From contig NZ_FZNN01000024.1 in assembly GCF_900188035.1 (NCBI RefSeq), positions 1-55,796 of the forward strand: DNA of 55,796 nucleotides, in the 5' to 3' direction. The stretch is from Puniceibacterium sediminis. Its GTDB lineage: Bacteria; Pseudomonadota; Alphaproteobacteria; Rhodobacterales; Rhodobacteraceae. The position numbers were made by a program, and so were the translations under genes. This document shows, piece after piece, positions 3,157-33,560 of this stretch. Position 1 is the stretch's first letter; each line of letters begins with the position of its first letter. Below the pieces are notes generated by a model that saw only the letters and a program-made list of their open reading frames with translations, was not told the origin of the DNA and made no database searches.

Positions 3157-3560
3157 GGAGCGACGACTTTCCAGAGGTAGGGTGGAGTCGTCAAAACCCC
3201 GGGACACCACTCAGCGGAAAATTCGCGGGCTCTGCGGGGGCATGGTATCACGCCGCCCATTCGCGCCGTTATCAGTCCCGCTGGTCCTCGATCATTTTCC
3301 GAATTCCTTCATTATGTTGCTTGTGAAGAGATTGTAGGAGGTGGGCAGGAACCTTTGATTGGGTCGTGGGCTGGGGTCATGAAGTCCTGGAGCAGATCGA
3401 GGGATGTTCATGGGGGCATTCCGGCTGCTGGCCGCGGCAGCGTGCCGAACCTTGGAGGCGATGCGGGGCAAGATTGGCATCGATGTCCGCAAGGATCTAC
3501 TCAACGAGGAAGGCCCGGATCTGCCATCCAAACCAAGGTTCATGATTGACCTTTCCCTGC
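3157..3560 (-). repeat. Dispersed HTH module, copy A (regulator deleted)
   Basis: This shares both flanks of the dispersed module seen at 7695, 20020 and 27309: on the left the segment with CTCTGCGGGGGCATGG, on the right TGTTGCTTGTGAAGAG, GGGCATTCCGG and CCGAACCTTGGAG. Nearly the whole regulator gene is gone. The last codons (IEDQRD in the minus frame) are joined to sequence next to the gene's start, about 3290-3315. On the right, similarity continues past CCTTGGAG to about 3550, matching copy E near 33340-33370. It separates the AraC block from the aldehyde oxidoreductase operon. Confidence 0.75.
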
Positions 3561-3827
3561 CCGGAACGGACGTACGATCACGGTGCGCGCAAGGATAAGC
3601 TGCTGGGCTGAGCGACGACGAGACATGCCGACACGCGGTTCGGTGCCACTGTCTGCGCAAGCCGAGATGATAGCTTCTTTTTCCTGCCAGATCCGGCTGT
3701 TGGCGTTTCCGTGACAGTTCCTGAACGTCTTCCTTGGAACCCTTTCGCGGGACCATCCGTTGTTCAGCGGATGGCACAGCGGCAGTTCAGTATCGCCGGG
3801 GACGCCATACAGGCTCAGGAGGCAGCA

Positions 3828-4331
3828 ATGAAAACCACCCTCACCGTAAACGGCACGCAGCACGAGGTGGGGCATGACCCGCGACGCACGCTGCTCGATA
3901 CTCTGCGCGATGATCTTGGACTTACGGGTACAAAGAAGGGCTGCGATCACGGCCAGTGCGGCGCATGCACTGTTCTGCTGAACGGGGAGCGCGTGAATTC
4001 CTGCCTTTGCCTGACCGCGATGCACGACGGGGATGAGATCACCACCATCGAAGGGATTGGAGCGCCTGAACGGTTGTCGGCGCTGCAGCGGGCGTTTGTC
4101 GAGAGGGACGGATTTCAGTGCGGTTATTGCACGCCCGGTCAGATCATGTCTGCGACGGCGATGCTGAAAGAGATTGCAGAGGGCTCGCCGTCTTATGTGA
4201 GCGATGACCTCGATGCCCCGAAGTTGAGCGATGGCGAGATGGCAGAGCGAATGTCCGGTAATCTCTGCCGCTGCTCTGCCTATCCGTTGATCCGCGAAGC
4301 CATTGCCATGGCAGCGGAGGTCAAGGAATGA
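3828..4331 (+). CDS. paoA: Aldehyde oxidoreductase, 2Fe-2S subunit (PaoA-like)
   Basis: Encodes 167 residues with two [2Fe-2S] motifs of the xanthine oxidase family: CDHGQCGACTVLLNGERVNSC near 40-62, then CGYCTPGQ and NLCRCSAY. It is the electron-transfer subunit of a three-subunit molybdenum hydroxylase that oxidises aldehydes or aromatic aldehydes. The ATG at 3828 has AGGAGG upstream; an in-frame upstream start lacks one. Unlike E. coli PaoA, no Tat signal is seen, which suggests a cytoplasmic enzyme. The stop overlaps the next start by 4 bases, so the three genes form an operon. Confidence 0.88.
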   Translation: MKTTLTVNGTQHEVGHDPRRTLLDTLRDDLGLTGTKKGCDHGQCGACTVLLNGERVNSCLCLTAMHDGDEITTIEGIGAPERLSALQRAFVERDGFQCGYCTPGQIMSATAMLKEIAEGSPSYVSDDLDAPKLSDGEMAERMSGNLCRCSAYPLIREAIAMAAEVKE

Positions 4332-5338
4332 GACCGTTTGACTATGTTCGCGCGACGGCCCCTGATGATGCTGCGCTTGTCTCCGGTCAGATCATCGCAG
4401 GCGGGACCAATCTGCTAGACCTGATGAAGATCCAGGTGATGGCCCCCGAAACGCTTGTCGATATCACCCGGATAGATGGCCTGTCGGACATCACGACCGA
4501 AGGCGACGGGCTGCGCATCGGTGCGCTTGTGACGAACACCGCGCTGGCACAGGACGCGCGCGTAAGGGCGGGCTGGCCACTTCTATCGCGCGCGATCCTC
4601 GCCGGGGCATCTGCGCAGATCCGCAACAAGGCGACCACCGGCGGCAACCTGCTCCAGCGCACGCGATGCCCGTATTTCTACGACACTTCGCAGCCCTGCA
4701 ACAAGCGCAGGCCGGGTGACGGCTGCGCCGCCAAAGGTGGCGAGGGGCGGATGCTCGCGCTGTTCGGCACATCCGAACACTGCCTTGCGGCGCACCCGTC
4801 CGACATGGCCGTCGCGTTGACCGCGCTACGGGCCGAGGTTGAGATCCGCACACCGCACGGCGATCTGCGCCGCATTCCCGTACAGCAACTCTATCATGCG
4901 CCAAGCGACCGACCCGACCGCGACACCGTGCTGGAGGCGGGTGATCTCATAACGGCGGTGATCCTGCCTGCGCCGCTGGTTGGCAGTCGGCAAGGCTACC
5001 GCAAGGTGCGCGACCGGGCGTCCTATGCTTTTGCGCTCGTCTCTGTCGCCGGGTCTATCCAAATGGAGGGTGATATGATCAGCCGCGCGCACCTAGCCTA
5101 TGGCAGCGTCGCGCCCCATCCCTGGACGGACGGGGCTGTGGCGAAAATGCTGGAAGGCCAGAAAGCCTCAGATGCGCTGTTCGCAAGGGTAGCCGACGCT
5201 CTCGTCCCGGACAGGGCGCCACACCCCGACACCGAGTACAAGCGCAGGTTGTTGCGCCGGACCTTCATCGCCACTCTGCGCCAGTTGACCGGGTTGGCCG
5301 ACACTTCAGGTACTGACATCGCGAGGACGCAGTCATGA
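4328..5338 (+). CDS. paoB: Aldehyde oxidoreductase, FAD subunit (PaoB-like)
   Basis: Encodes 336 residues of the FAD-binding CO dehydrogenase medium-subunit family. The FAD motifs are IIAGGTNLLD near the N-terminus and the TTGGNLLQRTRCPYF segment. The latter is followed by a Cys-rich insertion (YDTSQPCNKRRPGDGCAAK) that in PaoB carries an extra [4Fe-4S] cluster; this separates it from ordinary XdhB-type subunits. It receives electrons from the 2Fe-2S subunit. Start and stop overlap its neighbours by 4 bases each, indicating translational coupling. The gene name rests on order and on the Cys insertion. Confidence 0.88.
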   Translation: MRPFDYVRATAPDDAALVSGQIIAGGTNLLDLMKIQVMAPETLVDITRIDGLSDITTEGDGLRIGALVTNTALAQDARVRAGWPLLSRAILAGASAQIRNKATTGGNLLQRTRCPYFYDTSQPCNKRRPGDGCAAKGGEGRMLALFGTSEHCLAAHPSDMAVALTALRAEVEIRTPHGDLRRIPVQQLYHAPSDRPDRDTVLEAGDLITAVILPAPLVGSRQGYRKVRDRASYAFALVSVAGSIQMEGDMISRAHLAYGSVAPHPWTDGAVAKMLEGQKASDALFARVADALVPDRAPHPDTEYKRRLLRRTFIATLRQLTGLADTSGTDIARTQS

Positions 5339-7524
5339 GCGACACTTTCACCATGGATAGCCCACAGCCCCGCCTGCTGGATCAGACAGGGCAGGGCGTG
5401 ATTGGCACGCCGATGAATCGCCCCGATGGCCCGCGCAAGGTGTCCGGTCAGGCGTGCTATACGGCAGACGCCGTGACGGAGGGCGTGGCACATGGCGTGC
5501 TGGTACGGTCGACCATTTCGCGCGGCAGGGTCACCGGTATGGATCTCGCCAGTGTCATGTCGATCGATGGCGTGATCGACGTCATCACCGACCCGCGCAT
5601 GATCCGCAACCCAGCGCAGGGCATGGCGGGAGAAGCGCCAGTACAGCCCGGCGACGCAGTCCACTATCACGGCCAGCCCATCGCGCTGGTGGTGGCCGAA
5701 AGCTTTGAAGCGGCACGTGATGCCGCCCAACGCCTGACTGTTCACTACGAGACGGAAGAGGCTTCCGTCACCCCAGAGGGGACGTCCGCAAGTGAGACGG
5801 ATGACCCTGAAACGGCTGGCGACTTCGACGCGGCTTGGCAGGCGGCTGAGGTGAAGGTTGATCTGAACTTCACCACACCATCGCAGGCCGCCGCCGCAAT
5901 GGAGCCCCACGCGGCGATCGCCGAATGGAAGGACAACTCCGTCACTGTGCACAGTTCACTCCAGATGATCCGCTTCAATAAGAAGGAACTTGCCGACACG
6001 CTGGGGATCGACCCCTCGCAGGTGCGCATTCTGGCACCCTTCGTGGGAGGTGGCTTCGGATCCAAGCTGGGACTTGGCCCTGAAGCCGTCGCCGCCGCCA
6101 TCGCATCCCAGAGGCTGGGCCGTCCGGTGCGGGTGGTGATGACGCGGCAGAACGTTTTCGATTGCGTGCTCCGTCGCTCGGAAACTGCTCAGCGAGTGCG
6201 ACTGGGAGCGACGCAGGACGGCAGAATTACCGCGATTTCCCATGATGACACAGTGTCCAATCTTGATGGTGAAGGGTTTTCCGAACCCGTGTCGCAAGCC
6301 TCGCAGTTCCTTTACGGCGCTGATGGGCTAAGCTTCACGCAGACCGTTGCGCGGATCGCAGCAACCCCGGCCGGGTCCGTGCGCGCACCCGGGGAAGCGG
6401 TGGGAATGCTCGGACTCGAAGCGGCAATGGATGAGTTGGCGGAGCGTCTGGGGATGGACCCCGTAGAATTGCGCCTAAAGAACCTGCCCGACAAGCACCC
6501 GATGGATGGGCGAGAGTATAGCACCCGTCGGCTCGCCGATTGTCTGCGCGAAGGCGCAGAGAACTTTGGCTGGGCACAGCGTGGCGCTGCGGGTATGCGA
6601 CGTGAGGGCGACTGGATGATCGGCATGGGCATGGCCTCGGCGGCCCGGTCCAGCATGCTGGTGAAATCCGCATCTCGCGTGCGCCTGACCGGCGACCGGG
6701 CTGTGGTCGAAACCGACATGACGGACATCGGCACAGGGACCTATGCCATTCTGGCGCAGATCACGGCTGAAATGCTGGGCCTCTCACCCGAACGTGTAGA
6801 GGTACGTCTGGGGGATTCCGATCTGCCCGGCGCATCGGGTTCCGGCGGATCCTTCGGTGCGAATTCTGCAGGCTCATCGACCTTCCTGGCCGCGCGCAAG
6901 ATCCGACGCCGGATTGCAGATCTTCTGGGCTGCGCCGAAGATGATCTCACGCTGCAGGGTGGTCGCGCCCGGGGCCTTAATCGCGACATGGCTCTTGCGG
7001 ACCTCGTGCAGGAAGAATTGGAGGCGGAAGCCACGATCAAAGCGGGAAAGACCGCCGAGAGCCACTTTTCATCTGGTTTCGGGGCCCATTTCGCTGAGGT
7101 CGCAGTCAACGAATGGACAGGAGAAGTTCGCGTGCGCCGCATGTTGAGTGTGATGTCGATGGGCCGCATCCTCAATGAAAAGACAGCCCGCAGTCAGGCG
7201 CTTGGCGGGATGATCTGGGGTATCGGCGCAGCCCTGACGGAAGAGATGCAGAACGACCAGCGTGATGGCCACGTGGTGACCCGTGACCTTGCAAACTACC
7301 ACGTCCCGTCCCACGCTGATGTTCCGGGTGACATGCAGGTGCTGTTTCTGGAGGAGCGCGATGACTGGGCAAATCCGATCCAGACCAAGGGCATTGGTGA
7401 GCTGGGCATATCCGGCGCGGGGGCCGCTGTTCTTAATGCCATCGCTCATGCAACGGGGCACCGGGTCTACGATTTCCCGGCGCTGCCAGACCGCGTGATC
7501 GCTGCGATGGAAGTCGAGATCTGA
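5335..7524 (+). CDS. paoC: Aldehyde oxidoreductase, Mo-cofactor subunit (PaoC-like)
   Basis: Encodes 729 residues, the usual length for the PaoC/YagR catalytic subunit. It carries the molybdopterin motif FVGGGFGSKLG, the segment TDIGTGTYAILAQI, the Gly/Ser-rich GSGGSFGANSAGS, and near the C-terminus KGIGELGISG, whose Glu is the expected catalytic base. It binds the molybdenum cofactor and hydroxylates the aldehyde. No XdhC/PaoD-type maturation gene lies nearby, so the cofactor chaperone must be elsewhere. The physiological substrate cannot be read from sequence. Confidence 0.9.
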   Translation: MSDTFTMDSPQPRLLDQTGQGVIGTPMNRPDGPRKVSGQACYTADAVTEGVAHGVLVRSTISRGRVTGMDLASVMSIDGVIDVITDPRMIRNPAQGMAGEAPVQPGDAVHYHGQPIALVVAESFEAARDAAQRLTVHYETEEASVTPEGTSASETDDPETAGDFDAAWQAAEVKVDLNFTTPSQAAAAMEPHAAIAEWKDNSVTVHSSLQMIRFNKKELADTLGIDPSQVRILAPFVGGGFGSKLGLGPEAVAAAIASQRLGRPVRVVMTRQNVFDCVLRRSETAQRVRLGATQDGRITAISHDDTVSNLDGEGFSEPVSQASQFLYGADGLSFTQTVARIAATPAGSVRAPGEAVGMLGLEAAMDELAERLGMDPVELRLKNLPDKHPMDGREYSTRRLADCLREGAENFGWAQRGAAGMRREGDWMIGMGMASAARSSMLVKSASRVRLTGDRAVVETDMTDIGTGTYAILAQITAEMLGLSPERVEVRLGDSDLPGASGSGGSFGANSAGSSTFLAARKIRRRIADLLGCAEDDLTLQGGRARGLNRDMALADLVQEELEAEATIKAGKTAESHFSSGFGAHFAEVAVNEWTGEVRVRRMLSVMSMGRILNEKTARSQALGGMIWGIGAALTEEMQNDQRDGHVVTRDLANYHVPSHADVPGDMQVLFLEERDDWANPIQTKGIGELGISGAGAAVLNAIAHATGHRVYDFPALPDRVIAAMEVEI

Positions 7525-7694
7525 ACCGGTTCAGGCTCCCGATGAAACGTGGAAGATATCATTTCGACATCGTCCACATTCTGGGGGCAGTGAGGTTAAG
7601 GATCGTGCGCTCGCGCAAAATTTGACGCTCTCACGTCGCACTTTAATCTAGAAGGGCGTGAGGGCTTAGATACTGTTCCGGACGCCCCTGCAGG

Positions 7695-8481
7695 CGTTTC
7701 GTCGTCGATCCGTTAATCGTGCAAATGACGCAGGCACTCCATCGCGCCCGCGTCCTGACTTGCCCGTTGAAACGCGCCAAGAGGGGTGATGTGCCAGAGA
7801 CAGGGGGTGCGTCAAAACCGTTAGATGCAACTCAGAAGGCAAATTTTGGGGCTCTGCGGGGGCATGGGCGCGCGCGCCCCGTTCTCGCCCCGCCTTCAGT
7901 CCCGCTGTTATTCGATCAGCTGATCGAACCTTGCCTCCGAGACCTCCATCATCCGCTCAAGGGGTTTGAAATAGGTCCGGCGCTTGCCACCGCAAAGCCG
8001 CTTGAACCGGTCGACGGCAGGTTGAGGCCCACGTATGTTGATCTGTGCCTCGGGCACTGGCTCAACCGTCCTGGAAATCGTGTTCCACGTTTCTGGCATG
8101 TATAGCCTCATCGCCACGCGGGTCAGTATCAGCGGGTCAATTCCCGGGCCCTGGAAAAGGCCGGGATCCGCTGGATCGGCATGCGCATCACGCCGGGCTT
8201 GAGCATGGAGATCACATTTGATCGCTCGAACCCGACTTAATTGGCAATCTCGGTTTGTGTCTTGCCGCTGGCGTCGATGGCCTCTGCCATCAGGTGGGCG
8301 GTAGGGCTGTCAGTCATGTCGTACCTCTTCATCATGTTGCTTGTACTGTGATGATAGAAGGCGCGCCGGGGTCCTTGATCGGGTCGTGGGCTTGTGGACA
8401 GAAGGCCCTAACTTAGATCGGAGGATGTCTCTGGGGGCATTCCGGGTGCGGGTCGTGCAATGGCACCGAACCTTGGAGTTG
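7695..8481 (-). repeat. Dispersed HTH module, copy B
   Basis: A 787-bp unit matching copy D (27309-28097) from end to end. It begins with TTCGTCGTCGATCCGT, continues through GCAAATGACGCAGGCACTCC, contains a decayed copy of the HTH gene, and ends at CCGAACCTTGGAGTTG. Here similarity continues further right (to about 8750) and is shared with copy E at 33181. It separates the aldehyde oxidoreductase operon from the VPLPA-CTERM/lysA block. No terminal inverted repeats or target duplication could be seen by eye. Confidence 0.85.
7896..8317 (-). pseudogene. Decayed HTH regulator of module B
   Basis: The same gene as the intact regulators at 20140 and 27511, but broken in at least three places. There is a TAA stop within the helix-turn-helix (ANEVGF became AN-stop-VGF, near 8237-8239), a frameshift near 8130 after SRA, and an early stop in the C-terminus (LIE-stop instead of LIEEQRD, near 7908). 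The promoter inverted repeat upstream has also decayed. This copy cannot make a working repressor. Confidence 0.85.
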
Positions 8482-8921
8482 TCGCGGGCAGGTGGGAGGA
8501 CGGTCTCGGTCTCTGCATGCAGGTCCGCATCATGGAAGGCTCAGAACTGTCCATCAATCCGGGATCTATCATGACCCGACTCCAGCCCTTTCGCGAAATT
8601 CATGCCAGGGGCAGGGAGCGCTCTGCTGCAGGCGCGAGATTCCGAGGCCGTTTTCCCGGAAGCCGACGCGCAGCGAACCGATGCTGCATCCTTTGATGCG
8701 GCAGGCTGCACTGGGATACTGCAGGCTGCACTGGCGGCGACAAGCGCAGATACGCGACAGCTGCGGCCATCGGAAGCACAAAATGCTTGATCTGCAGGCC
8801 GCGTCAGGCGAGTTTGGCACCAAACGTCAGGCCACTTGGGAAATGTCGGGACAAAAAAGGTCGGCTCACTTATTGTCCGACCATTAGTTTATATAAGATT
8901 TTTCTAAAATGGAGTTGGGAG

Positions 8922-9890: not shown

Positions 9891-10059
9891 TGCGTTTAGG
9901 TGCGGCCGCAGCAGCAGACACGAAGGGCGGATGGACTAAGCCGCTCCGCGGCATCGGCGCCTGATCGCAAGGTCGGCAGATATTTCATGGTTTTTCTTTG
10001 TGGCATGCCGGTCTGGGCTGACGATTGGGGTCTTTCCCACCGTCAGACAGGAGGTTCCC

Positions 10060-10947
10060 ATGAAGGAGGAGAAGGCCACCCCGCTGCGTCAGCGGATGAT
10101 CGAAGATATGGATATTCGGGGGCTGTGCGAGAAGACGCAAAAAGCGCACATCCGGAATGTGAAGCATTTCGCGTCATTCCTCGGGCGGCCGCCCGATACA
10201 GCCACCCCTGAAGATCTGCGCGCCTATCAACTCAAGATGACACAGGACGGCGTGTCAGCCAGCACCTTCAACGTGCGCATCATTTCCCTGCGGTTCTTCT
10301 TCGGGATCACTTGCGGGCGTGATGAGATGAAGCGCTTCATGCAGTTTCATCGCAAGCCCCGCAAATTGCCGATTGTCCTGAGTGTCGAGGAGGTGGCTGA
10401 TTTGATGGCCGCCGTGCCCGGCCCTGGGCTCAAATATCGGGCGGCTCTTGGCATCAGTTACGGTGCCGGGCTGCGTGCATCCGAAGTCTGCAACCTCAAG
10501 GTCAAAGATATCGACAGCGATCGGATGCTGATCCATGTCGATGACGGCAAGGGCGGGCGTGATCGAAAGGCCATGTTGTCGCCGAGCCTGCTGGATCTGT
10601 TGCGCGACTATTGGCGCGAGTCGCGCCCCGAGGGGTGGTTGTTCCCCGGCAAGCCAAAGATCAGCCCGCTGTCGCCCCGACAACTGAACCGTGCATTCAC
10701 CTCGGCCAAGCACATGGCAGGTATCCAGAAGGCCGCCACGCTGCACACATTGCGGCACAGCTTTGCCACACACCTGCTGGAAGCCAACACGGACGTGCGG
10801 GTGATCCAGGTGTTGCTTGGCCACTCCAAGCTGACGACCACAGCACGGTATGCCCATGTGGCGACAAAGACCATCCGCAGCACTGTCAGCCCTTTCGAGC
10901 AGATGAAGCTGTTGCAGGACGAGACCCTGCGACGAGGGATGCAATAG
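10060..10947 (+). CDS. Tyrosine recombinase associated with IS91-type element
   Basis: Encodes 295 residues of the phage-integrase/Xer-like family. An N-terminal SAM-like domain (about 10-95) is followed by the catalytic domain with GAGLRASEVCNL (first Arg), HTLRHSFATHLL (His-x-x-Arg), LLGHSKLTTTARYAHV (His and the nucleophile Tyr). Such integrases regularly precede IS91-family transposases in Proteobacteria and move with them. The ATG at 10060 follows CAGGAGGTTCCC. Only 12 bases separate its stop from the transposase start. It looks intact. Confidence 0.9.
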   Translation: MKEEKATPLRQRMIEDMDIRGLCEKTQKAHIRNVKHFASFLGRPPDTATPEDLRAYQLKMTQDGVSASTFNVRIISLRFFFGITCGRDEMKRFMQFHRKPRKLPIVLSVEEVADLMAAVPGPGLKYRAALGISYGAGLRASEVCNLKVKDIDSDRMLIHVDDGKGGRDRKAMLSPSLLDLLRDYWRESRPEGWLFPGKPKISPLSPRQLNRAFTSAKHMAGIQKAATLHTLRHSFATHLLEANTDVRVIQVLLGHSKLTTTARYAHVATKTIRSTVSPFEQMKLLQDETLRRGMQ

Positions 10948-10959
10948 CGCCAGGGGCCG

Positions 10960-12228
10960 GTGCCCCGGCCCAAGCTGGAGATCGCTGACATATTCCGCGG
11001 CTATGGTCCTGCATGGCGGCAGGCCAACGCCGGGCATGTCAGCCTCTCCCAGCTCAAAGTGATGTCGGCGATTGAAGCCTGCCGGACCGAAGCGCTCGGC
11101 GGGCATGTGGCCGGTTGCGCCAAGTGTGGCCACCACCATATCGCCTACAATTCCTGCAAGAACCGGCATTGCCCGAAGTGTCAGGGACCGGCCGCGCGCG
11201 ACTGGATGGAGGCCCGTGCCGAGGACCTGCTGCCGGTGGAGTATTTCCACGTCGTCTTCACGATACCCGCCGAGATTGCGCAGATCGCCTACTGGAACAA
11301 GAAGGCGGTCTACGGGCTACTGTTCAAGGCGTCTGCGGAAACGGTGACGACCATCGCCGTCGATCCCAAGCGTATGGGCGCGCGGGTCGGTATGACCAGT
11401 GTGCTGCACACATCGCGCCAGAGGCGCGTCTTCGACACGACGGGATCAGCGCTGACGCATCATCCCCACATCCACATGATTGTCCCGGGCGGCGGCCTGT
11501 CGCCCGACTCTGCGAAGTGGGTCGCCTGCAAACCGGGTTTCTTCCTTCATGTGCGGGTGCTGTCGCGGTTGTTCAGGCGCCTGTTTCTGGACGGGCTCAT
11601 GGAACTGCACCGGACCGGGCAACTGGCCTTCTTCGGTGATCTCGAAGGGTTGGCCGCAGCTGATGCCTTCAAGGCCTGGCTCGCCCCGTTCCGGAAGGCC
11701 GAGTGGGTGGTTTACGCCAAACCACCCTTTGGAGGGCCTGAGGCAGTTCTGGCCTATCTGAGCCGATACACCCACCGCGTCGCGATCTCGAACGCCCGCC
11801 TGGTCAGCGCCGATGCCCAAACTGTCGCCTTCAGCTGGAAGGATTACCGCATCAAATCCGGCGCACCACTGCCCGGCAGTGGTTTGCGCAGCACAACCAC
11901 GAGAGGGCGCCAAAAGGTCATGCGCCTGGCCACGCCCGAGTTCATCCGTCGCTTCCTGATCCATGTCCTCCCTGAGGGCTTCCACCGCATCCGGCACTAC
12001 GGCCTGCTGGCCAGTTCGACCCGCAAGGACAACATCACAAAGATCCGCGCCTTGCTCTGCCTCCAAGGACGGGAACAGGCCACCGTGTCAGGCCGCGAAG
12101 CCGAGATCACCCCACTCACCCTGCGCGAACCGTGCCCCTGTTGCGGCGGCCCCATGCGCATCATCGAGATCTTCCGCCGCGGGCAAAAACCGATGTCGCG
12201 GGCACCTCCGAGGCAGCAAGCCGCATGA
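10960..12228 (+). CDS. IS91-family transposase (HUH, Y2-type)
   Basis: Encodes 422 residues with the IS91 layout: an N-terminal zinc-binding region (CAKCGHHHIAYNSCKNRHCPKC), the HHPHIHMIVPGG metal-binding motif, and the SRYTHRVAISN segment that carries the catalytic Tyr. It drives rolling-circle transposition. Two in-frame insertions depart from the family pattern: about 9 residues at 11414-11441, replacing the usual Trp in LHTWGSA, and about 16 residues around 11857-11904 between KDYRIK and GRQKVM. Both carry short perfect inverted repeats. Whether the protein remains active is uncertain. Confidence 0.88.
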   Translation: MPRPKLEIADIFRGYGPAWRQANAGHVSLSQLKVMSAIEACRTEALGGHVAGCAKCGHHHIAYNSCKNRHCPKCQGPAARDWMEARAEDLLPVEYFHVVFTIPAEIAQIAYWNKKAVYGLLFKASAETVTTIAVDPKRMGARVGMTSVLHTSRQRRVFDTTGSALTHHPHIHMIVPGGGLSPDSAKWVACKPGFFLHVRVLSRLFRRLFLDGLMELHRTGQLAFFGDLEGLAAADAFKAWLAPFRKAEWVVYAKPPFGGPEAVLAYLSRYTHRVAISNARLVSADAQTVAFSWKDYRIKSGAPLPGSGLRSTTTRGRQKVMRLATPEFIRRFLIHVLPEGFHRIRHYGLLASSTRKDNITKIRALLCLQGREQATVSGREAEITPLTLREPCPCCGGPMRIIEIFRRGQKPMSRAPPRQQAA

Positions 12229-12720
12229 CACACCGCCTGTCAGATGGCACAGAACGCCACCGGCTGCACCCTGCAGATCCGGGAATGACAGGCTGTGCCC
12301 ATCTTCCTTTGGCGCGAAACACGATGGCAATCATGCCAAATCGTTCAGCGGTTACGAGGGCATCGAACGCACCCGCGCCCGTCTCAGGCGCCGTGTGCAA
12401 ACTCGGCCGCACCCCTGATACAAACGGTGCCCCCAACCGCCAGCACACTTTCCCCATAGGGTGATCCAAGCCCCCCGCGGCTTCCTCCTTCCGAGGTTTG
12501 TCAACGTGGGCCGCCATCTCATGGCCGCCACCGTCGCGCCGCGGCTCACATCGAAAAACATCGAAAAACCTTCAGGATTCCGGACTTTTTCTGCGGGCGC
12601 AAGCGAAACAGGCCGGAAACGAAGAGCGGACATTGCATGGCATGAAAGGCGATTGTGGAGCCAGACTACGGAACGGCGGAAGAAAATCGACATCCGTAAG
12701 AGACTGGAAAACACCCGCGC
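12229..12720. other. IS91 downstream region, no gene recognised
   Basis: Several open frames cross this stretch on both strands, but none resembles a known protein or has a convincing start. It probably holds the 3' terminus of the IS91-type element, whose boundary I cannot place by eye. Confidence 0.4.
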
Positions 12721-12726
12721 TGAAAT

Positions 12727-15173: not shown

Positions 15174-15616
15174 TCCACGTGAGACCGCGCATGACGCGTC
15201 GACAAGCGGTTAAACTCTGTGCCTGTCCAGGCAGCTATATTGCTGTGCAGCCAACCAACTTCCGCACTGGCAAAATTGTACTGATGCACCCGCCAAGCAA
15301 GCGACCGGCCGCGTAACCAAGGGCGATCACGGGTAGCAACTTTGCAGCGACCGCTTCCTGCGCGTTCCTGCCGCTTGCACCAGGTCCGCAGTCAGCCCAG
15401 AGCAGTCGGTCGTTACCGTGCGTATGACACAGCGATCCGGTTCACCCAACTTCGACAGTTCGGACGCTGATTTGAGCAGCTTGCGGACTTCGGGTTACTA
15501 CTTTTCAAAGGGTTAGTGCGAGAGTGCGTGCAGAATTGAGTGGCGTTTGTCATCACACGCGTTAGGTATTTGATGCATTGAATTAATGGCTTTTTGCGTG
15601 GTAACGTCGCCACATA
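15174..15616. other. Gene-free stretch with a short dispersed repeat
   Basis: No credible gene is seen. A 31-bp sequence at 15336-15366 (GCAACTTTGCAGCGACCGCT and on) recurs exactly at 41289-41319, downstream of the IS110 element. The IS1634 remnant begins at the right edge. Confidence 0.5.
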
Positions 15617-19621: not shown

Positions 19622-20139
19622 TTTGCTTTCCTTTCTGTCGCCTTCTTCCGCGCGATCCAGCGGACCCGATCGGCTTGTGGCGCGCGTTCACATGACCTAT
19701 GTGGTCAGTTCCGGATTGCAAGTCATTGAACCCAAGAGGCAAAAGTCTCGAGCTGGTAGTCGGCGCAAGCGCCTAAAATTCGCCTGTGAGCGTGATCCAG
19801 TTTTTCATGGGGTCAGCGAGAGACGGCTGCGAGATCGCACTCATGCGCGATATTTGGTGCTCTGGGGCGCTCTGCGACCTAGGGGCGGGCGTTTGGCAGC
19901 GGACGCGCCGATGCGATGTCCCTGTCGGACTATACCTGCCAGCTAGAACACATGGCGCGAGCACACCTTTTCATTCCCGCGCCAAGTGTATGTTCATGTG
20001 TCACCTGTAAAATCGCGTCAGGAGCGACGACTTGCCAGAGGTAGGGGCCGGGTCGTCAAACCCCCAAAAATGCCACTCGGCAGCGATATTCGGGGCTCTG
20101 AGGGCGCAGACGTGATGCGCCCCCACATTGTCGCCGCTC

Positions 20140-20553
20140 TCAGTCGCGCTGTTCCTCGATCAACTGATCGAACCGTGCCTCCCAGACATCCATCATCCGC
20201 TCAAGGGTTTCGAAATAGGTCCGGCGCTCAGCACCGCAAAGCCTCTTGAACCGGTCGACGGCAGGTTGCGGTCCCCGGATGTTGATCTGTGCTTCGGGGA
20301 CAGGCTCAACCGTCCTGGAAATCGCGCTCCACGTTTCCGGCATGTATTCCCTCATCGCCACCCGCGTCAGCATCAGCGGGTCAATCCCGGTGGCTCTGGA
20401 AAAGGCCGGGATCCGCTCGATCGGCATCCGCATCACGCCGGTCTTTAGCATGGAGATCACATTTGATCGCTCGAACCCGACTTCATTGGCGATCTCGGTC
20501 TGCGTCTTGCCGCTGGCCTCTGCGATCAGGCGGGCGGTGGGGCTGTCAGTCAT
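20140..20553 (-). CDS. Module HTH regulator (XRE-like), copy C
   Basis: Encodes 137 residues. An N-terminal Cro/CI-like helix-turn-helix (GKTQTEIANEVGFERSNVIS) is followed by a conserved middle (RIPAFSRATGIDPLMLTRVA) and an amphipathic helical C-terminus (YFETLERMMDVWEARFDQL). It is almost identical to the copy at 27511 but lacks three residues (IDA) before the HTH, a 9-bp deletion. The start at 20553 follows GAGGTACGAC. It probably represses its own promoter, which holds an inverted repeat. No toxin or phage gene is paired with it. Its targets are unknown. Confidence 0.8.
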   Translation of the reverse strand: MTDSPTARLIAEASGKTQTEIANEVGFERSNVISMLKTGVMRMPIERIPAFSRATGIDPLMLTRVAMREYMPETWSAISRTVEPVPEAQINIRGPQPAVDRFKRLCGAERRTYFETLERMMDVWEARFDQLIEEQRD

Positions 20554-20560
20554 GTCGTAC

Positions 20561-20592
20561 CTCTTCAATATGTTGCTTATGAAGAGATTATA
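20561..20592 (-). promoter_or_regulatory. Promoter and inverted repeat of module regulator C
   Basis: On the minus strand a TATAAT -10 box (20587-20592) is followed at once by the inverted repeat CTCTTCA-N12-TGAAGAG (20561-20586), whose second arm overlaps the ribosome-binding site. This is a natural place for autorepression by the HTH protein. The same arrangement is conserved in copy D. No good -35 box is seen. Confidence 0.5.
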
Positions 20593-20763
20593 GAAGGCGC
20601 GCCGGGGCCCTTGATCGGGTCGTGGGCTTGTGGACACGAAGTCCTAGGTCAGGTCGGAGAATGTCCCTGGGGGCATTCTGGGTGCGGGTCGTGCAATGGC
20701 ACCGAACCTTGGAGTTGAGATTTTCCACTCCCGGCGGCAGCCTGCGACAATTCCAGATATTGT

Positions 20764-21084
20764 TCAGCCAGGATCTCGGTCAGATAGTGTTGCTGTGCTG
20801 GCTCCTTCCTCCGGCAAGTGCAACTTGAGCACTGAGCGGATCGCGCTCCACATTTCGGGCATATATTCCGTCATCGCTGTGTTGAGCAACAACACGGGAT
20901 CGATGCCGGTGCTCTCCGCGATGGCCGGGATGCGTTCGATCGGAACGCGCATCTCGCCGGATTTCATCATTGAGACAACATTGGGGCGAGCAAAGCCCGT
21001 CTCGTTCGCTATTTCCCGCTGTGTCTTGCCGCTGGCTCGGATCGCCTGATCCAGGAGAGCCGCAGTTGTGCCGTGAGTCCTCAT
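20764..21084 (-). CDS. Second HTH regulator (XRE-like), possibly frameshifted
   Basis: Encodes 106 residues. The first 80 resemble the module regulator (GKTQREIANETGFARPNVVS, then IERIPAIAESTGIDPVLLLN), but the C-terminus differs and ends LSDRDPG. If one base is skipped near 20795 the frame continues with a sensible helical tail, QHYLTEILAEQYLELSQAAA, up to the edge of module copy C. The present gene may therefore be a frameshifted and truncated relative. The start at 21084 lies about 40 bases below a 12-bp palindrome. Confidence 0.7.
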   Translation of the reverse strand: MRTHGTTAALLDQAIRASGKTQREIANETGFARPNVVSMMKSGEMRVPIERIPAIAESTGIDPVLLLNTAMTEYMPEMWSAIRSVLKLHLPEEGASTATLSDRDPG

Positions 21085-26824: not shown

Positions 26825-27280
26825 TCAACCAACGTTTGCATGCCAGCAGTGGAGACTGGACCTGCCCAAAGGCTGCTTTCGCCTTAGCGGAGCATAAACT
26901 TCCTGACCGACCTCTCGCTCACGGCGTGAGGACTGGGAGGGCAGACAAATACGCCGATGGGCTAGATGGGGCTGCAGGTAGAGGGGCCGCCGGGTTTCAA
27001 TCCCTGAAAGTGCCGCCCTGATCAGAACATCAGCGCACGCGCGTGCCGCTTCAGCGTCCCAGTGCAGCGGTTTGTCTGATTTCGGCAGCGGTGCATCCGC
27101 GTCCGGGATTGCCACACCGTGCGGCCAGTCGGCCGGGCAGATCGCGACATACCATGCATATCTGCCGACGCCTCCCTTGAACTTCGGATAGCGGATCGAG
27201 ACCAGGCATCCCGTCGGGGGGACCTGATCCAGGTTGGCAACGCCTTCGGCTTGCGCATATCCGGGGGCGGTCGTGGTCAA
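26825..27280 (-). CDS. Hypothetical protein, probably a remnant
   Basis: An open frame of 151 codons. The first half reads like a real protein (GCLVSIRYPKFKGGVGRYAW, then YVAICPADWPHGVAI and LHWDAEAARACADVLIRAA). The second half is basic and low in order, and looks like read-through into non-coding sequence. The left end of module copy D begins 28 bases from its start. I do not recognise the family. It may be a fragment of a larger gene cut by the module. Confidence 0.35.
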   Translation of the reverse strand: MTTTAPGYAQAEGVANLDQVPPTGCLVSIRYPKFKGGVGRYAWYVAICPADWPHGVAIPDADAPLPKSDKPLHWDAEAARACADVLIRAALSGIETRRPLYLQPHLAHRRICLPSQSSRREREVGQEVYAPLRRKQPLGRSSLHCWHANVG

Positions 27281-27510
27281 CCAAGTTTGTTCGTAAATAT
27301 CTTGGCACGCTTCGTCGTCGATCCGTCAATCGTGCAAATGACGCAGGCACTCCATCGCGCCCGCGTCCTTACTTCCCCGTGGAAACGCGCCAAGAGTGAT
27401 GATGTTCCAGAGGCAGGGGTAGGGTCGTCAAAACCGTTAGATGCAACTCAGCAGCAAATTCCCGGGCTCTGCGGGGGCATGGGTGTCACGCCACCCCATT
27501 CACGCCGTTT

Positions 27511-27933
27511 TCAGTCCCGCTGTTCTTCGATCAACTGATCGAAGCGGGCCTCCCAGACGTCCATCATCCGCTCAAGCGTTTCGAAATAGGTTCGCCGCTC
27601 GGCACCGCAAAGCCGCTTGAACCGGTCGACGGCAGGTTGCGGTCCCCGAATGTTGATCTGTGCTTCGGGGACGGGCTCGACCGTCTGGGAGATCGCGTTC
27701 CACGTTTCCGGCATATATTCGGTCATCGCCACCCGCGTCAGCATCAGCGGGTCGATCCCGGTGGCCCTGGAAAAGGCTGGGATCCGCTCGATGGGCATCC
27801 GCATCACGCCGGTCTTTAGCATGGAGATCACATTTGATCGCTCGAACCCGACTTCATTGGCGATCTCGGTCTGCGTCTTGCCGCTGGCGTCGATGGCCTC
27901 TGCGATCAGGCGGGCGGTGGGGCTGTCAGTCAT
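27511..27933 (-). CDS. Module HTH regulator (XRE-like), copy D, intact
   Basis: Encodes 140 residues, the full-length form. The helix-turn-helix spans about 19-41 (TQTEIANEVGFERSNVISML). A conserved RMPIERIPAFSRATGIDP follows, then a middle region (INIRGPQPAVDRFKRLCG) and a helical C-terminus possibly used for dimerisation. The start at 27933 follows GAGGTACGAC at the proper distance; in-frame sequence upstream is promoter DNA. It is likely a small autoregulated repressor. With no adjacent antitoxin, toxin or phage gene, its wider role is unknown. Confidence 0.85.
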   Translation of the reverse strand: MTDSPTARLIAEAIDASGKTQTEIANEVGFERSNVISMLKTGVMRMPIERIPAFSRATGIDPLMLTRVAMTEYMPETWNAISQTVEPVPEAQINIRGPQPAVDRFKRLCGAERRTYFETLERMMDVWEARFDQLIEEQRD

Positions 27934-27940
27934 GTCGTAC

Positions 27941-27972
27941 CTCTTCAATATGTTGCTTATGAAGAGATTATA
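27941..27972 (-). promoter_or_regulatory. Promoter and inverted repeat of module regulator D
   Basis: Read on the minus strand, TATAAT (27967-27972) is followed by CTCTTCA-N12-TGAAGAG (27941-27966). The arrangement is the same as in copy C and degraded in the pseudogene copy B, as expected if it is the operator that an active repressor keeps under selection. Confidence 0.55.
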
Positions 27973-28144
27973 GAAGGCGAGCCGGAGACCTTGATCGGGT
28001 CGTGGGCTTGTGGACACGAAGTCCTAGGTCAGATCGGAGAATGTCCCTGGGGGCATTCCGGGTGCGGGTCGTGCCACGGTGCCGAACCTTGGAGTTGCTT
28101 CCAAAACAGGAGATCAAGCTTGAACTTCAATCTCCGTAATAACG

Positions 28145-28211: not shown

Positions 28212-28248
28212 CATGCAAACAGGACAACGAACGCGAAGGAAGCGATCA

Positions 28249-29226
28249 ATGGATCAGAACAAGAAATCAATGGCGGACCAAGCGTATGAGCGGCTTGTAG
28301 AGTTCGAGCAGACATTTGGGGGCTCTGAATTTTTCGAAGAAGGTTACATCCGTACCGTAGAGTATATCTGCGGCTTGTCGGAACTCCTTTTTGGAAGAGA
28401 TGAAGCATCAGCCTGCTTTGATGCGATGGCGCGCAAAACGTTCTCTCTAACTGACCAAGATCTATCATGGCGGCAGGTGTTGGAAGATGAATACAATAGC
28501 ATATTCAGCGAAACCGCGCTTGGCCAGTTGATCCACGACCTCACAGCGTATGCTGACTACGGGATCGTGGTGAAGTCAGCCTGTTCTCTGGACGACCGGC
28601 GCTTGATCTTGAAAGACGATATCGACGCCGCGGAGCGGTTCCTGTCACTTCTTCCTTTGCAACTCTGGAAGCTGCAGCAAGAGCACTTGGTAAAGATACT
28701 TCGTAAAGCTCTGGCAAGGTGGAAGCTAGACACCAACAAGCCCGTATGCGCGGACGAACTGGCCCTGCTGTCCGGGCGGGCGTTGCAGACCATCAAGAAC
28801 AACCTCGGCCTACAGTCAAAGCCGATTAAGGGGAATCAGAATAGGATCGATGCAACAGATGCAATGGACTGGCTGGCAACCCAGAATAATTTCCTATCGT
28901 CGATTTGGGAAGATCAGGACGATTTCGACGTGCCGGAAATGCAAGTTGAAGATCTCGGCGAGGTAGTCTTTGTGCCTGTGGCTGCTGACGGGAGCATCTT
29001 CCAGCCGAACCATCAACGGGACGGCAGATATCAGATCGATGCTGGCGGTGACATGCTCTCGGTGGCTGATTACCGTAACGCGCTCGCTCAATTGCAGAAA
29101 ATGCAGAATCCCTATTGGCGTCGCCCAACGAAACAGGGCTCGTGGACACGTGTGCGCGCAATCGAATGGCGTCGCGTGCCAGTCAGTGAGTTGATGGCAT
29201 TGGCAGCGGCAACAGTCACACCTTAG
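28249..29226 (+). CDS. Unrecognised protein with helix-turn-helix-like segment
   Basis: Encodes 325 residues of no family I recognise. The N-terminal 150 residues are helical and acidic. Residues 165-212 (CADELALLSGRALQTIKNNL, then KPIKGNQNRIDATDAMDWL) look like a helix-turn-helix of the excisionase/MerR kind, where a Lys-rich turn leads into a domain choosing a DNA site. The C-terminus (PYWRRPTKQGSW) is basic. The start at 28249 follows GAAGGAAGCG. It precedes a Rep-like gene by 128 bp in the same direction, so it may regulate or assist it. Codon use is less G+C-rich than the flanking metabolic genes. Confidence 0.7.
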   Translation: MDQNKKSMADQAYERLVEFEQTFGGSEFFEEGYIRTVEYICGLSELLFGRDEASACFDAMARKTFSLTDQDLSWRQVLEDEYNSIFSETALGQLIHDLTAYADYGIVVKSACSLDDRRLILKDDIDAAERFLSLLPLQLWKLQQEHLVKILRKALARWKLDTNKPVCADELALLSGRALQTIKNNLGLQSKPIKGNQNRIDATDAMDWLATQNNFLSSIWEDQDDFDVPEMQVEDLGEVVFVPVAADGSIFQPNHQRDGRYQIDAGGDMLSVADYRNALAQLQKMQNPYWRRPTKQGSWTRVRAIEWRRVPVSELMALAAATVTP

Positions 29227-29354
29227 CGCCAGCACGACTCCATAGTCCAACATTCACGTCAGAGAATTGGTTTCCCACTCGGGGCACCGATCCAAAAACT
29301 GTCGGCGAATGACTCTTCAAGCAACTAAACAGAGCAATCTAAGGAGAACGATCA

Positions 29355-30689
29355 ATGACATACCAAGCTTTTCGGCCAATCTTCAAAAGCGAAACCTTTC
29401 TTTCCGAGGTCCTCGGTGCCCGCCCGGTAATGTTCGAAAGTTCGTTCGCAGACACGGACGATGCGAAATTTTACTCTGCCGTTCCGGATGTGTCACTGGA
29501 GTATGGTATTTCAGAGGCAAAAAGGCAGCGCAGGTTTGATGGCAGGGTCGCGCTTCTTCCGCAGTTAAATCTGAGCGACTATACCTTTCGAGCTGTAATT
29601 GACTTCGTCGAGATCAAAGCGAAGTCGCGTGGGTATGTTAACTGGGCGCATCTCTCTGAATGGCTGAAGACCCGTACACAACTTTCTTGCTCAATCACTG
29701 GTAACGGAAAAGACAAAGTCTTCATCAAAGTCCAGGAGCCGGATCGACATCACTTAGTGCGATTACTGGACGCTATAAACGAGCATGCGTCGCTGAGCAC
29801 GGACGGGAATCTGAATGCAGTGGAAGTCAGCATCGATATCTGTCCGACCAAGCAAAGACTACACGAGTATTTACCCGAGAGCCAGCGCTTGAGCCTGGTT
29901 GACTACGAGAGGATGAATTGGAGAATGACCGAACATCTCAATCGACACTTTCTTCCACCGCAAGAGTTCTGGGACTATCAACGTGGCAAACCTAGAAGTG
30001 TTTATGAAGATGGGATGCACTGGCTCTTCACTCGCCCAAGCGTCGACAGGATTCTCCGCAGTTCCTGGAGTTCGCAGCACGCCTTGATGATCCAAGAATC
30101 CCACGGTATACAATTTCCTGTCCATCTGCCCTTCCTGCAGGAGATGGAACCTCGGAACTATCGACAGCCGAATGTGAATGGCACGACGTATTGGGGCGAG
30201 AAAAACGGTGATGTAAGCTTCAGGGTCATGTACAAACTCAAAGACAATCAGAATCGAGGCGACGGGGAATTCGAACTGCTTTCAGCTTACGACAGGCGTG
30301 CCCGGATTGAAGTCACGTTGAGGGGTAAAGCTCTCAGGGACAACAAACTCGAAAACTGCTGGAACATCGGTGATGGGTTGAGAATGCTGCGACGGAAGTT
30401 CTTCAAATTCTGGATCCCGACTTTGCCGCTGACTGCAGATACATGCGTCTCATCGCTAGACCTGGAGAGATTCCAGAGGGGTGGTGTCTTGGCCGTGCTC
30501 CAAGCGGCCAAAGCGGAGCGGGAGAGGCACTCACATCTCAATCGCCGCGTTCGAGGCCGTCGTCTCAGAAAAGGGTGGCGCAGGATGGCCAACGATGAAC
30601 ATGAGGGTCTTCAAGCTTACACCCAGATGAACAAGCGGTGTGCAGATGCTTTGTCTCGTACCGAGAAGAGCTGGGCAAATCTGGACTGA
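29355..30689 (+). CDS. Putative replication-initiation-like protein
   Basis: Encodes 444 residues with no certain family. Three features resemble Rep_trans/RstA-type replication initiators of small phages and plasmids: a beta strand VEVSIDICPT (156-165), a TTYWGEKNG segment (277-285) preceding a FRVMYKLKD strand, and RARIEVTLRG (315-324), the usual site of catalytic acidic residues. A strongly basic patch (RRVRGRRLRKGWRR) lies near the C-terminus. The start follows AAGGAGAACGATCA. Upstream repeats and a downstream hairpin suit a replication or mobilisation role. This is inference. Confidence 0.45.
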   Translation: MTYQAFRPIFKSETFLSEVLGARPVMFESSFADTDDAKFYSAVPDVSLEYGISEAKRQRRFDGRVALLPQLNLSDYTFRAVIDFVEIKAKSRGYVNWAHLSEWLKTRTQLSCSITGNGKDKVFIKVQEPDRHHLVRLLDAINEHASLSTDGNLNAVEVSIDICPTKQRLHEYLPESQRLSLVDYERMNWRMTEHLNRHFLPPQEFWDYQRGKPRSVYEDGMHWLFTRPSVDRILRSSWSSQHALMIQESHGIQFPVHLPFLQEMEPRNYRQPNVNGTTYWGEKNGDVSFRVMYKLKDNQNRGDGEFELLSAYDRRARIEVTLRGKALRDNKLENCWNIGDGLRMLRRKFFKFWIPTLPLTADTCVSSLDLERFQRGGVLAVLQAAKAERERHSHLNRRVRGRRLRKGWRRMANDEHEGLQAYTQMNKRCADALSRTEKSWANLD

Positions 30690-30749
30690 GGAAATAGATG
30701 CCCGGAGGGAAGAGCTTGGTTGCATCAGTTACTAGTGGGCGGTTCAGCT

Positions 30750-30836: not shown

Positions 30837-31075
30837 GCAAAACTTCTGGGAATCCAGGAACGTTTCGGCGTAAACGCCACTTTCGTCCTGAATCTGCGCT
30901 AAAATCCTGCATTGTCGGTGACCTGCTCCTCGGTCAAGGGTGCGTCGCTGGTCCATCAAAGTGATCCGCCCAGTATCTGTCGTTCACGACCAGCACGGCA
31001 ACCGCGGTGCTCCTTGTGGCACATGATTGGCCGCCCCGGGTCACTCCGGAGCGGCGGAAAGGTCTGAAACAGCCT

Positions 31076-31672: not shown

Positions 31673-31679
31673 GACCGCC

Positions 31680-32657: not shown

Positions 32658-32678
32658 ATGAGTCTCCAGAGAGATCCG

Positions 32679-32699
32679 GGCACACTTTAAATGTGTGCC
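32679..32699. promoter_or_regulatory. Inverted repeat between copper genes
   Basis: GGCACAC-TTTAAAT-GTGTGCC, arms of seven bases around an AT-rich centre, lies 22 bases upstream of the YcnI-PCuAC start and after the DUF2946-like gene. It could be a repressor site for the copper genes or a weak transcription stop. Position favours an operator. Confidence 0.4.
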
Positions 32700-32747
32700 G
32701 CATGACAGGATTGCGCCGATCAAACGACGCGCAAGTTTGTGTCGGGA

Positions 32748-33101
32748 TCAGACGGTACGCGGTGGCGCGCGCACAGAGACATGGGCCGAGAGAAACTGCG
32801 GGCCCAGAACAAGATTACGCCCGGAGAGCTGCACAACGACCTGCACGATCCGCTGCGACTTGTCGGGTGCTTTGATACGCGGCGCCTCTGGCAGCTTGTG
32901 ACAGAACGGGCAGCGGTGATCGTGTTCGGCACCGTCCAGCCCGCAGAGATCCTCGGCCAGAATTCCCATTGCGTGAAACGCATCGAGACGGGCCACATCT
33001 TCGCGGTCCGGAGCCAGGTGGTGCGCGGAAAAGACGCTGAGCACCGCGAGCATAAACGCGGTGCAGAACACAAACATTATCCGGCGCAGTTTTTGGACCA
33101 T
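32748..33101 (-). CDS. DUF2946-like membrane/periplasmic protein
   Basis: Encodes 117 residues with an N-terminal membrane segment (RIMFVFCTAFMLAVLSVF), a His pair (SAHH) and a CPFCHKLPEAP motif like that of DUF2946 proteins. These small proteins commonly accompany PCuAC, SCO and copper transporters and are thought to bind metal in the periplasm. It is first of the three copper genes, with 90 bp to the next. The start at 33101 is a choice; an upstream in-frame start exists. Confidence 0.65.
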   Translation of the reverse strand: MVQKLRRIMFVFCTAFMLAVLSVFSAHHLAPDREDVARLDAFHAMGILAEDLCGLDGAEHDHRCPFCHKLPEAPRIKAPDKSQRIVQVVVQLSGRNLVLGPQFLSAHVSVRAPPRTV

Positions 33102-33180
33102 GCCGGTTTCTTGCCGCAATCCGGGCGGAAGAGGAAGCCAGAAATCTGGCTGCAGCCATTTTGTGGCCGAGATTGACAAT

Positions 33181-33560
33181 CATGGGTTGAGGGCAGAAGG
33201 TCCTAGGTCAGTTAAGCCGATTTCCGTGGGGGCATTCCGGGTGCGGGTCGTACAAAGGCTCCGAACCTTGGAGTTGATGCGGGCAGGTGGGGGGGGGCGG
33301 TCTCGGTTTCTGCGAGCAGTTGCTCAACATGGGCGGCTCAGAACCGCCCTTCAAGCCAAGGTCCATGATGACCGGTCTCAGCCCGTTTCCGACATTTATG
33401 TTTGGCGTAGCGCCCGCTCTGCCGCAGGTGCGAGATTCCGAGGCAACTTTCACCGAAGCGGATGCTCGGCCTGGCGATGCTCCCGCTTGTGATGCTGCAG
33501 GCCGCTCTAATGGCAGCAACGCGCAGGGAGCCGCCTTTGCAAAGTCAGCCCGCTGACGAG
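33181..33560 (-). repeat. Dispersed HTH module, copy E (right part only)
   Basis: Begins with GGGCAGAAGGTCCTAGGTCA, then GGGGGCATTCCGGGTGCGGG and CCGAACCTTGGAGTTG. It carries on for more than 200 bp with similarity to copy B (GCGAGATTCCGAGGC motif at 33429 and 8634) and copy A (CCAAGGTCCATGAT). The regulator gene and left half are absent. It lies between the copper cluster and the nickel/cobalt cluster. The rest of the gap to 33703 has no recognisable gene. Confidence 0.75.

Follow-up and report, generated by a model that had tools for sequence, protein, structure and literature searches.

Directly repeated 75-bp sites and HTH genes 3′ of a tRNA-Phe gene in Puniceibacterium sediminis: a possible accretion island of decayed integrative elements

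Integron cassette arrays carry short direct sites, conserved at their ends and variable in the middle, between their cargo units, and ISCR/IS91 elements also occur as directly oriented copies. The sites described here, from one entire contig of P. sediminis (55,796 bases, hereafter the window), resemble integron sites in this layout; however, their ends, AAGTCCTAG and CCTT(G/A) in our alignment A6, differ from the attC motifs, the cargo is multi-gene and the sites usually accompany an HTH gene. That decayed elements accrete at tRNA genes is already known, as far as the systems treated in two reports go (PMC5704250, PMC3146451). The CIME/IME/ICE tRNA islands portrayed in the first of these are alike in having decayed elements in tandem and uniformly oriented at a tRNA 3′ end, with unrelated cargo and the older integrases lost, whereas the window is without att repeats between units, its landmark being a 75-bp site plus an HTH gene, and, unlike those islands, shows no relaxase or transfer gene among the ORFs scanned. 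The Dehalococcoides ssrA tandem islands, in the account of PMC3146451, similarly have direct repeats enclosing variable cargo on the downstream side of a single RNA gene, although their repeat is the 20-bp ssrA end and the window repeat is not a tRNA core. One constant end with variable neighbours is shared with ISCR/IS91 as presented in PMC6218425 and PMC13393415, but the element here has no demonstrated HUH transposase and its copies lie at one locus only. No description of this element family appeared among the best-ranked literature matches. We consider it about an even chance (roughly 0.5) that decayed integrative elements of a single undescribed family have accreted 3′ of tRNA-Phe to form an island spanning ~3 to 41.5 kb of the window.

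Five module copies lie in the same orientation at 3158-3457, 7695-8481, 20011-20717, 27308-28097 and 33180-33276, as the original prediction had stated, and BLASTN added a sixth, divergent HTH copy that it had overlooked (20764-21084, - strand, immediately right of site 3, 60-65% protein identity to copy 4). When 27309-28097 was searched against the organism's whole genome (4.64 Mb, 69 contigs), seven places were returned, all on the window contig and on the + strand, among them 7698-8481 (87%, E 5e-272), 20011-20717 (89%, E 2e-271), 3307-3457 and 3158-3294 (80-81%, E 4e-32 and 9e-29), 33180-33276 (80%, E 1.6e-16) and, within the divergent HTH copy, 20839-21047 (71%, E 4e-18). Self-BLAST of the window returned these pairs as well, and chance is excluded as their source. 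Copy 4 is the fullest module; copies 2 and 3 each consist of a left flank, an HTH gene on the - strand (broken in copy 2, open at ~20143-20553 in copy 3), its promoter and the site. Copy 1 keeps both flanks, the left one as a remnant at 3158-3294 (81% to 27394-27533), and has lost its HTH gene between 3294 and 3307, while copy 5 is reduced to the site and ~18 bp preceding it, its homology with copy 2 continuing from 33180 to 33508. The stretch right of site 2 that is common to site 5 (8482-8712) includes a dispersed repeat of the genus (8582-8712). Alignment of the ends by self-BLAST showed that the left ends are unequal, at 7695 and 27308 in copies 2 and 4 and at 3146 and 20010 in copies 1 and 3. 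The copies themselves stand, yet what they have in common is less than originally described: just the 75-bp site, usually with an XRE-type HTH gene. As predicted, there is no transposase inside the module; an inverted repeat pair of at least 40 bp was also absent from the window.

The blocks between the copies are of diverse nature. A molybdenum aldehyde oxidase/xanthine dehydrogenase-type operon (3735-7529, + strand; Pfam Fer2/Fer2_2, FAD_binding_5 and MoCoBD) is 82% identical to G295:C29:18311-22104, and in this genome, inferred to be P. antarcticum, neither HTH module nor site was found in 15.5 kb; the flanking blocks therefore do vary. A PF04199 cyclase gene remnant (27010-27263, - strand) is 81% identical to 2164-2418 of the P. 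antarcticum locus L042, where the cyclase gene (Cyclase E 4.9e-31) follows the HTH gene. The Y2_Tnp gene at 10960-12228 belongs to a stretch found whole elsewhere without a module match, and the integrase at 10000-10947, which adjoins the IS91-type gene, was rejected as a family integrase with only 23-28% identity. To the right of copy 4 are P0002 (28213-29226, + strand, 337 aa), with homologues of 40-42% identity in same-family loci of G154 and G229 (E 9e-79 and 5e-82), and P0003 (29355-30689, + strand, 444 aa), which co-occurs with the HTH gene.

The 75-bp site is bipartite, AAGTCCTAG-N~58-CCTTGGA, and occurs on the + strand as site 1 in copy 1 (3381-3456; model R2, 51.7 bits, E 5.6e-14), site 2 (8404-8477, 49.3 bits), site 3 (20638-20713, 59.7 bits), site 4 (28018-28093, 60.2 bits, E 1.2e-16) and the solo site 5 without HTH gene (33198-33272, 50.6 bits). 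In 30 sources R2 found 27 instances at E <= 0.004, 24 of which had served to build the model, and two weaker matches (E 0.048 and 0.095) were left uncounted; A6 contains 24 sequences, with Ocean2 placed ~9 bp off and without its right end. Besides the window's, 16 contigs carry the site, most of them from Rhodobacteraceae. It is present in 16 of 19 HTH-bearing sources (absent in L045, L047 and L099), was not found in the 2.8-3.6 kb examined with the P0003 homologues L091, L093 and L096, and at G074:C3 is accompanied by neither HTH nor P0003 within 16 kb. Searched as an exact pattern, it turned up four times, on each occasion in a family locus, across 3 of 295 genomes, with 26 matches listed for the reversed control; a variant pattern gave eight places in 3 of 292 genomes and 0 control matches. 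A further 26 pattern matches in IMG/VR matched none of 13 family proteins by tblastn and were put down to chance. Orientation is uniform on all six contigs known to have at least two sites (16 sites: five in the window, three in G067 and two each in G154, L043, G107 and G074:C6), a result with a probability of 2^-10, or ~0.001, if the sites are independent. Uniform site orientation is also expected from tandem duplication. An RNA structure for the site was rejected, as folding of four site sequences was no better than that of shuffles (z -0.13 to -0.75), predicted folds disagreed among the 24 sequences and two-sided change was seen in 1 of 18 pairs of the consensus fold; Rfam returned just two miRNA-family matches, far under their gathering scores.

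In other genomes the same components recur. The HTH gene was found in 8 of 295 genomes and P0003 in 9, with both in 6, and the 19 HTH-bearing sources, some of which share a genome or contig, hold P0003 in 12 cases and the family integrase in seven. Site loci outside the window often include the 444-aa P0003-type protein, and some a conserved tyrosine integrase, found in G067 (partial), G088, G107, G154, G074 and L044; the G088 integrase has 63-77% identity to those of L044, G107, G154 and three G074 contigs. Module DNA matched 30 of 295 genomes, many through short matches within the HTH gene that were left out, and of the 18 of 295 genomes matched by model R1 at E <= 0.01, G000, G067, G088 and G107 were used and the other 14 (E 7.7e-4 to 0.0088) left out. 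Gene order inside the element differs from locus to locus. Direct sites enclose an amino-acid operon in G154; in G107 they enclose glycosyltransferase genes, and a 1.28-kb HTH module is present there in two direct copies, 79% identical and 11.2 kb apart. With the HTH gene and site in other genera, the module is not a tandem-duplication product of this genome only. A phage origin was rejected since IMG/VR searches for close relatives of the HTH protein and P0003 returned none; the single match of the L044 homologue, within a 1534-aa tape-measure-like tail ORF, was taken as chance.

An intact tRNA-Phe(gaa) gene (ARAGORN; 41539-41613, - strand) has its 3′ end facing the array, which lies on its 3′ side at lower coordinates with the nearest site 8.3 kb away. 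In the window, G067 and L046 the HTH genes share the strand of the tRNA gene and lie 3′ of it, and G067, of the same genus, holds two 48-bp tRNA-Phe 3′ halves 17 kb apart, with an integrase remnant ~1 kb from one of them and three sites farther on. These arrangements, and the integrases of the relatives, suggest that the window array was built by accretion through a family tyrosine integrase. A fuller element would comprise the 75-bp site, an XRE-type HTH regulator, P0003, sometimes P0002, captured cargo and the tyrosine integrase, and several decayed members of this family, which is found mostly in Rhodobacteraceae, would make up the island. The integrase would insert every element in a single orientation relative to the tRNA, and the HTH-site modules of successive elements would thus stay behind directly repeated, separated by cargo. 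Decay in the window would then have removed the integrase, broken one HTH gene, deleted another and brought one copy down to a bare site, while exchange at or near the sites may have mixed left and right arms of the modules. A family integrase is absent from the organism's own genome at E 1e-20, which is compatible with CIME. No 14-bp segment from the 3′ part of tRNA-Phe recurs in the window, and the contig may end before the island border. Of 29 sources examined, just four contained a tRNA-Phe match, too few to establish tRNA-Phe as a general target.

It is unlikely, in our estimate, that related plasmids or circular elements instead fused by homologous recombination at the HTH-site module, in which case direct copies would flank an absorbed replicon and the site would serve in replication or partition. 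Such a route demands the direct orientation observed, and copies 4 and 5 do have P0002-P0003 between them. In two closed Sagittula plasmids the site and HTH-P0003 lie beside repA, between repA and parA, without a family integrase, a finding that also tells against accretion, and G074 has homologues of HTH or P0003 on its contigs C6, C7, C8 and C14 (4-52 kb). However, a P0003 gene is found in just one window block, the stretch shared in G154 (site plus ~14 bp) is short for homologous exchange, and the array adjoins a tRNA gene. PLSDB held no match to the module by DNA and none by P0003, and the L101 and L044 homologues matched one and two Sagittula plasmids, respectively. The Sagittula E-37 plasmid has a second HTH place.

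Within the window, homology switches at both edges of the 75-bp site: copies 4 and 3 are 97% identical over 120 bp on its HTH side and at background on the opposite side, whereas copies 2 and 5 are 71% identical on the non-HTH side and near background (37%) on the HTH side. These switches, and the direct sites that bracket unrelated operons in relatives, partly support the proposal that the modules are recombination points, and they suggest more specifically that exchange may take place at the site itself. Breaks falling at the site are not explained by accretion alone. One could go further and see the site, with P0003 or its partners acting on it in place of the tyrosine integrase, as the joint for single-orientation multi-gene cargo, giving a cassette-like operon array with a regulator gene at its joints, which we hold to be rather improbable. 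The site is probably not the att site of the integrase because it does not adjoin the integrase in integrase-bearing loci.

The HTH gene of copy 4 (27514-27933, stop excluded, - strand) encodes the predicted 140 aa from ATG, with weak HTH_37/HTH_26 matches under the Pfam cut-offs. Copies 3 and 4, in which the reading frame is open, give a dN/dS of 0.05 for this gene and are thus under purifying selection; their promoters are 96% and their sites 92% identical, but their left flanks only 72%. Such a pattern is what one might expect if a regulator with its upstream control region had been duplicated locally in the island and kept for controlling its neighbours, the cargo borders being incidental. 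We regard this as improbable, since directly oriented sites of the same kind flank unrelated operons in other genera and, in relatives, also adjoin P0002 or P0003 without a neighbouring HTH gene. The proposed promoter inverted repeat, CTCTTCA/TGAAGAG, can be seen in copies 3 and 4, though not in copy 2 or the relatives L042 and L039.

P0003 is a candidate replication initiator or nickase, and if it nicked the site at its CCTT(G/A) edge and dragged adjacent DNA along, one-ended rolling-circle transposition of the sort proposed for ISCR elements would produce direct copies, fixed at one end and separated by cargo. Copies 2, 3 and 4 and several relatives indeed cease matching at CCTTGGAG while the opposite end varies, the letters conserved at this edge of the site are CTTG or CTTA, solo sites occur, and L091, a further P0003 homologue, has a Rep_trans match (E 0.026) below the cut-off. 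Nevertheless the copies are confined to one contig, homology breaks at the other site edge too (copies 2 and 5), hhalign of P0003 against a Rep_trans-like protein gave a probability of 0.3%, and P0003 is without demonstrated catalytic residues, all of which makes this route quite improbable. No Rep_trans match at E <= 1 was found in any of 11 A3 members, and a survey of 198 genomes gave one weak, sub-cut-off match. None of Pfam, NCBIfam and PHROGs gave a reliable match to P0003; an SMC identity was rejected, the NCBIfam match (E 0.0033 in 1 of 11 members) being taken as chance. Its two structure models were poor (mean pLDDT 43.6 and 48.9), a fold search with the second returned nothing at 1e-3, and no HUH (Y2_Tnp) domain was found in P0001, P0002 or P0003. 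A non-autonomous, MITE-like transposon, as the original prediction also offered, would fit a repeated unit without transposase and with a sharp right edge in several copies, but it is not supported and is very improbable because all copies lie on one contig, in one orientation, and the left end is not fixed.

If the island did arise by accretion of such integrative elements, roseobacter-type bacteria would hold an undescribed family of them with a diagnostic 75-bp site, and the family's 444-aa protein would be one that escapes three family libraries. The site pattern is specific enough to find the family, and it marks the positions of the oxidase, copper and glucose-dehydrogenase genes in the island, as well as those of other operons in other genera. 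Should the site itself be the joining point, it would represent a new route of operon capture.

The original prediction of five HTH-bearing module copies in one orientation was confirmed by searching all of the own genome (4,642,053 bases in 69 contigs, the window being the entire contig C53), which returned seven matches, all on the + strand of the window contig and with E 1.6e-16 or better. The HTH gene encodes an XRE-type regulator (140 aa in copy 4; 27514-27933, - strand) and is open in copy 3 (20011-20717) and copy 4 (27308-28097), broken in copy 2 (7695-8481), deleted from copy 1 (3158-3457) and absent from copy 5 (33180-33276); a sixth, divergent HTH copy (20764-21084) comes after copy 3. 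Between copies 2 and 3 lies a stretch with integrase and IS91-type Y2_Tnp genes (9917-12559), probably a recent arrival, with 98% identity to G296:C1:101989-104603. A 169-aa ORF left of copy 3 (19112-19621, - strand) falls slightly under the Pfam cut-off for a replication-associated ORF2/G2P protein, and no homologue was found among the other loci then compared.

When the window copies were aligned with relatives, conservation stopped at ..CCTTGGA in most sequences; the core of the module is a 75-bp bipartite site. Its ends read (G)AAGTCCTAG and CCTT(G/A), with a variable middle and a nearly fixed spacing of about 74-76 bp overall; no conserved RNA fold was found for it. The later sequence model of the site, built on 24 instances and run over 497 kb of loci, recovered all 24 and three further ones, all in G074, with E no higher than 0.004 (weaker matches at E 0.048 and 0.095 were left uncounted). 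Beyond the window, the sites so counted fall on 16 contigs, which belong to 13 genomes or records including L043, labelled an Oceanospirillaceae MAG. With a cut-off of E <= 0.01, an earlier model had matched 18 of 295 genomes, of which 14, at E 7.7e-4 or weaker, were left aside. The exact pattern, which like its variant overlooks many true sites (three of the five in the window, for example), occurred at four places in 3 of 295 family genomes, every one within element-family loci; its reversed control gave 26 matches by our own tally, a figure that may be too high an estimate of chance since CTAG is scarce in many bacteria. The variant pattern occurred at eight places in 3 of 292 relatives, with none in the control.

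On the HTH side, copies 3 and 4 are 97% identical across 120 bp and the site itself matches at 92%, whereas past it they fall to background (13% over 60 bp and 32% over 120 bp; shuffled 28%). The reverse holds for copies 2 and 5, where identity is 37% toward the HTH side, 80% within the site and 71% on the far side (shuffled 32%). The HTH side of copy 1 is common to copies 2 and 4 (62-66%), and on the other side it bears a weak likeness to copy 2 (50%). Since identity switches at the site between copy pairs, the site is where differing left and right arms meet. The arm homology of copies 2 and 5 is weaker proof of exchange, because their right arms partly consist (8582-8712 and about 33368-33670) of a dispersed genus repeat, seen at about 71-90% identity on many contigs of the same-genus genome G295, in G296 and in the own genome. 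Another repeat, of 66 bp (86%), occurs at 15305-15370 and 41258-41323 and on other contigs of own and related genomes. Three head-to-tail 50-bp repeats open the contig (45-212), and near-identical sequence starts contigs C24 and C40, suggesting that the window contig ends inside a repeat.

The HTH protein was found in 8 of 295 genomes (E <= 1e-15) and P0003, a 444-aa protein encoded right of site 4 (29355..30689, + strand), in 9 (E <= 1e-5), with both in six. By profile scan, 19 of 27 sources held the HTH gene, and among these 16 had a site, 12 P0003 and seven a tyrosine integrase; the counts are not independent, since certain sources come from the same genome or contig. Compared with the integrase of G088, those of L044, G107, G154 and three G074 contigs show 63-77% identity; the integrase in the window is 23-28% identical to them. 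A second conserved protein adjoins the integrase at L102:7014-8147, L041:12483-13193 and L044:6760-7449, with a sub-threshold Recombinase-type C-terminal match. In the G074:C7 element, 147-bp tandem repeats (2.6 copies, L098:10271-10657) separate the HTH gene from the integrase. P0002, the 337-aa protein encoded next to P0003 in the window (28213..29226, + strand), has homologues in G154 and G229.

Cargo varies between loci. A cyclase gene lies between HTH and P0003 in L042 (P. antarcticum), and a remnant of this gene persists left of copy 4 in the window; a cation-efflux gene takes this place in L044. The G154 site pair encloses PALP, M24 peptidase and Asp/Glu racemase genes, and that of G107 glycosyltransferase/deacetylase and DUF3131 genes with another integrase. 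G295 has an aldehyde-oxidase operon 82% identical to that of the window, with neither HTH nor site within 15.5 kb around it. Site orientation is uniform on all six contigs known to carry at least two sites (window five, G067:C67 three, and G154:C9, L043, G107:C18 and G074:C6 two each; most other contigs were scanned in part), for which chance gives 2^-10 assuming independent sites.

The only tRNA gene found in the window, a tRNA-Phe (41539-41613), lies 8.3 kb past site 5 with its 3' end toward the array; a GmrSD-type restriction endonuclease gene (37661-39430, + strand) stands between it and copy 5. Matches to this tRNA occurred in 4 of 29 sources: the window; L046, where the tRNA gene is intact and 5 kb from the HTH gene; and two stretches of G067. 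Each G067 stretch contains a 48-bp 3' half, the first about 1 kb from an integrase remnant and the second 17 kb away. In the window, L046 and G067 alike, HTH genes lie on the tRNA strand, on the 3' side of the gene. Within the window, no 14-bp piece of the tRNA-Phe 3' part was found to recur.

We consider accretion of decayed integrative elements at tRNA-Phe the most likely origin of the array, at a probability of about one half. Accretion at tRNA genes is a known process, as described in passages of two papers (PMC5704250; PMC3146451), and is favoured because it accounts for the direct orientation, the unrelated cargo, the missing integrase and the G067 structure, though it leaves the position of the breaks at the 75-bp site unexplained. 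Three alternatives are less likely. One is fusion of plasmids at the module; in each of two complete Sagittula plasmids, a single counted site and a single HTH-P0003 pair lie between repA and parA, and in one of them tblastn with the HTH protein gave a second match. Another is one-ended rolling-circle transfer starting from the site; P0003 resembles Rep_trans in motifs compared by eye, with weak backing from an L091 match (E 0.026) and no support from hhalign or fold search, and none of its 11 members had a reliable Pfam, PHROGs or NCBIfam match. The third is plain duplication, which in tandem would likewise yield uniform site orientation. That the module is a free non-autonomous transposon is unlikely.

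Between copies 3 and 4, the HTH genes show dS 0.24 and dN 0.013 (ratio 0.05), and the promoters are 96% and the sites 92% identical, compared with 72% in the left flank. Given this low ratio and the conserved promoter and site, the two regulators appear to have been maintained along with the regions upstream of them.
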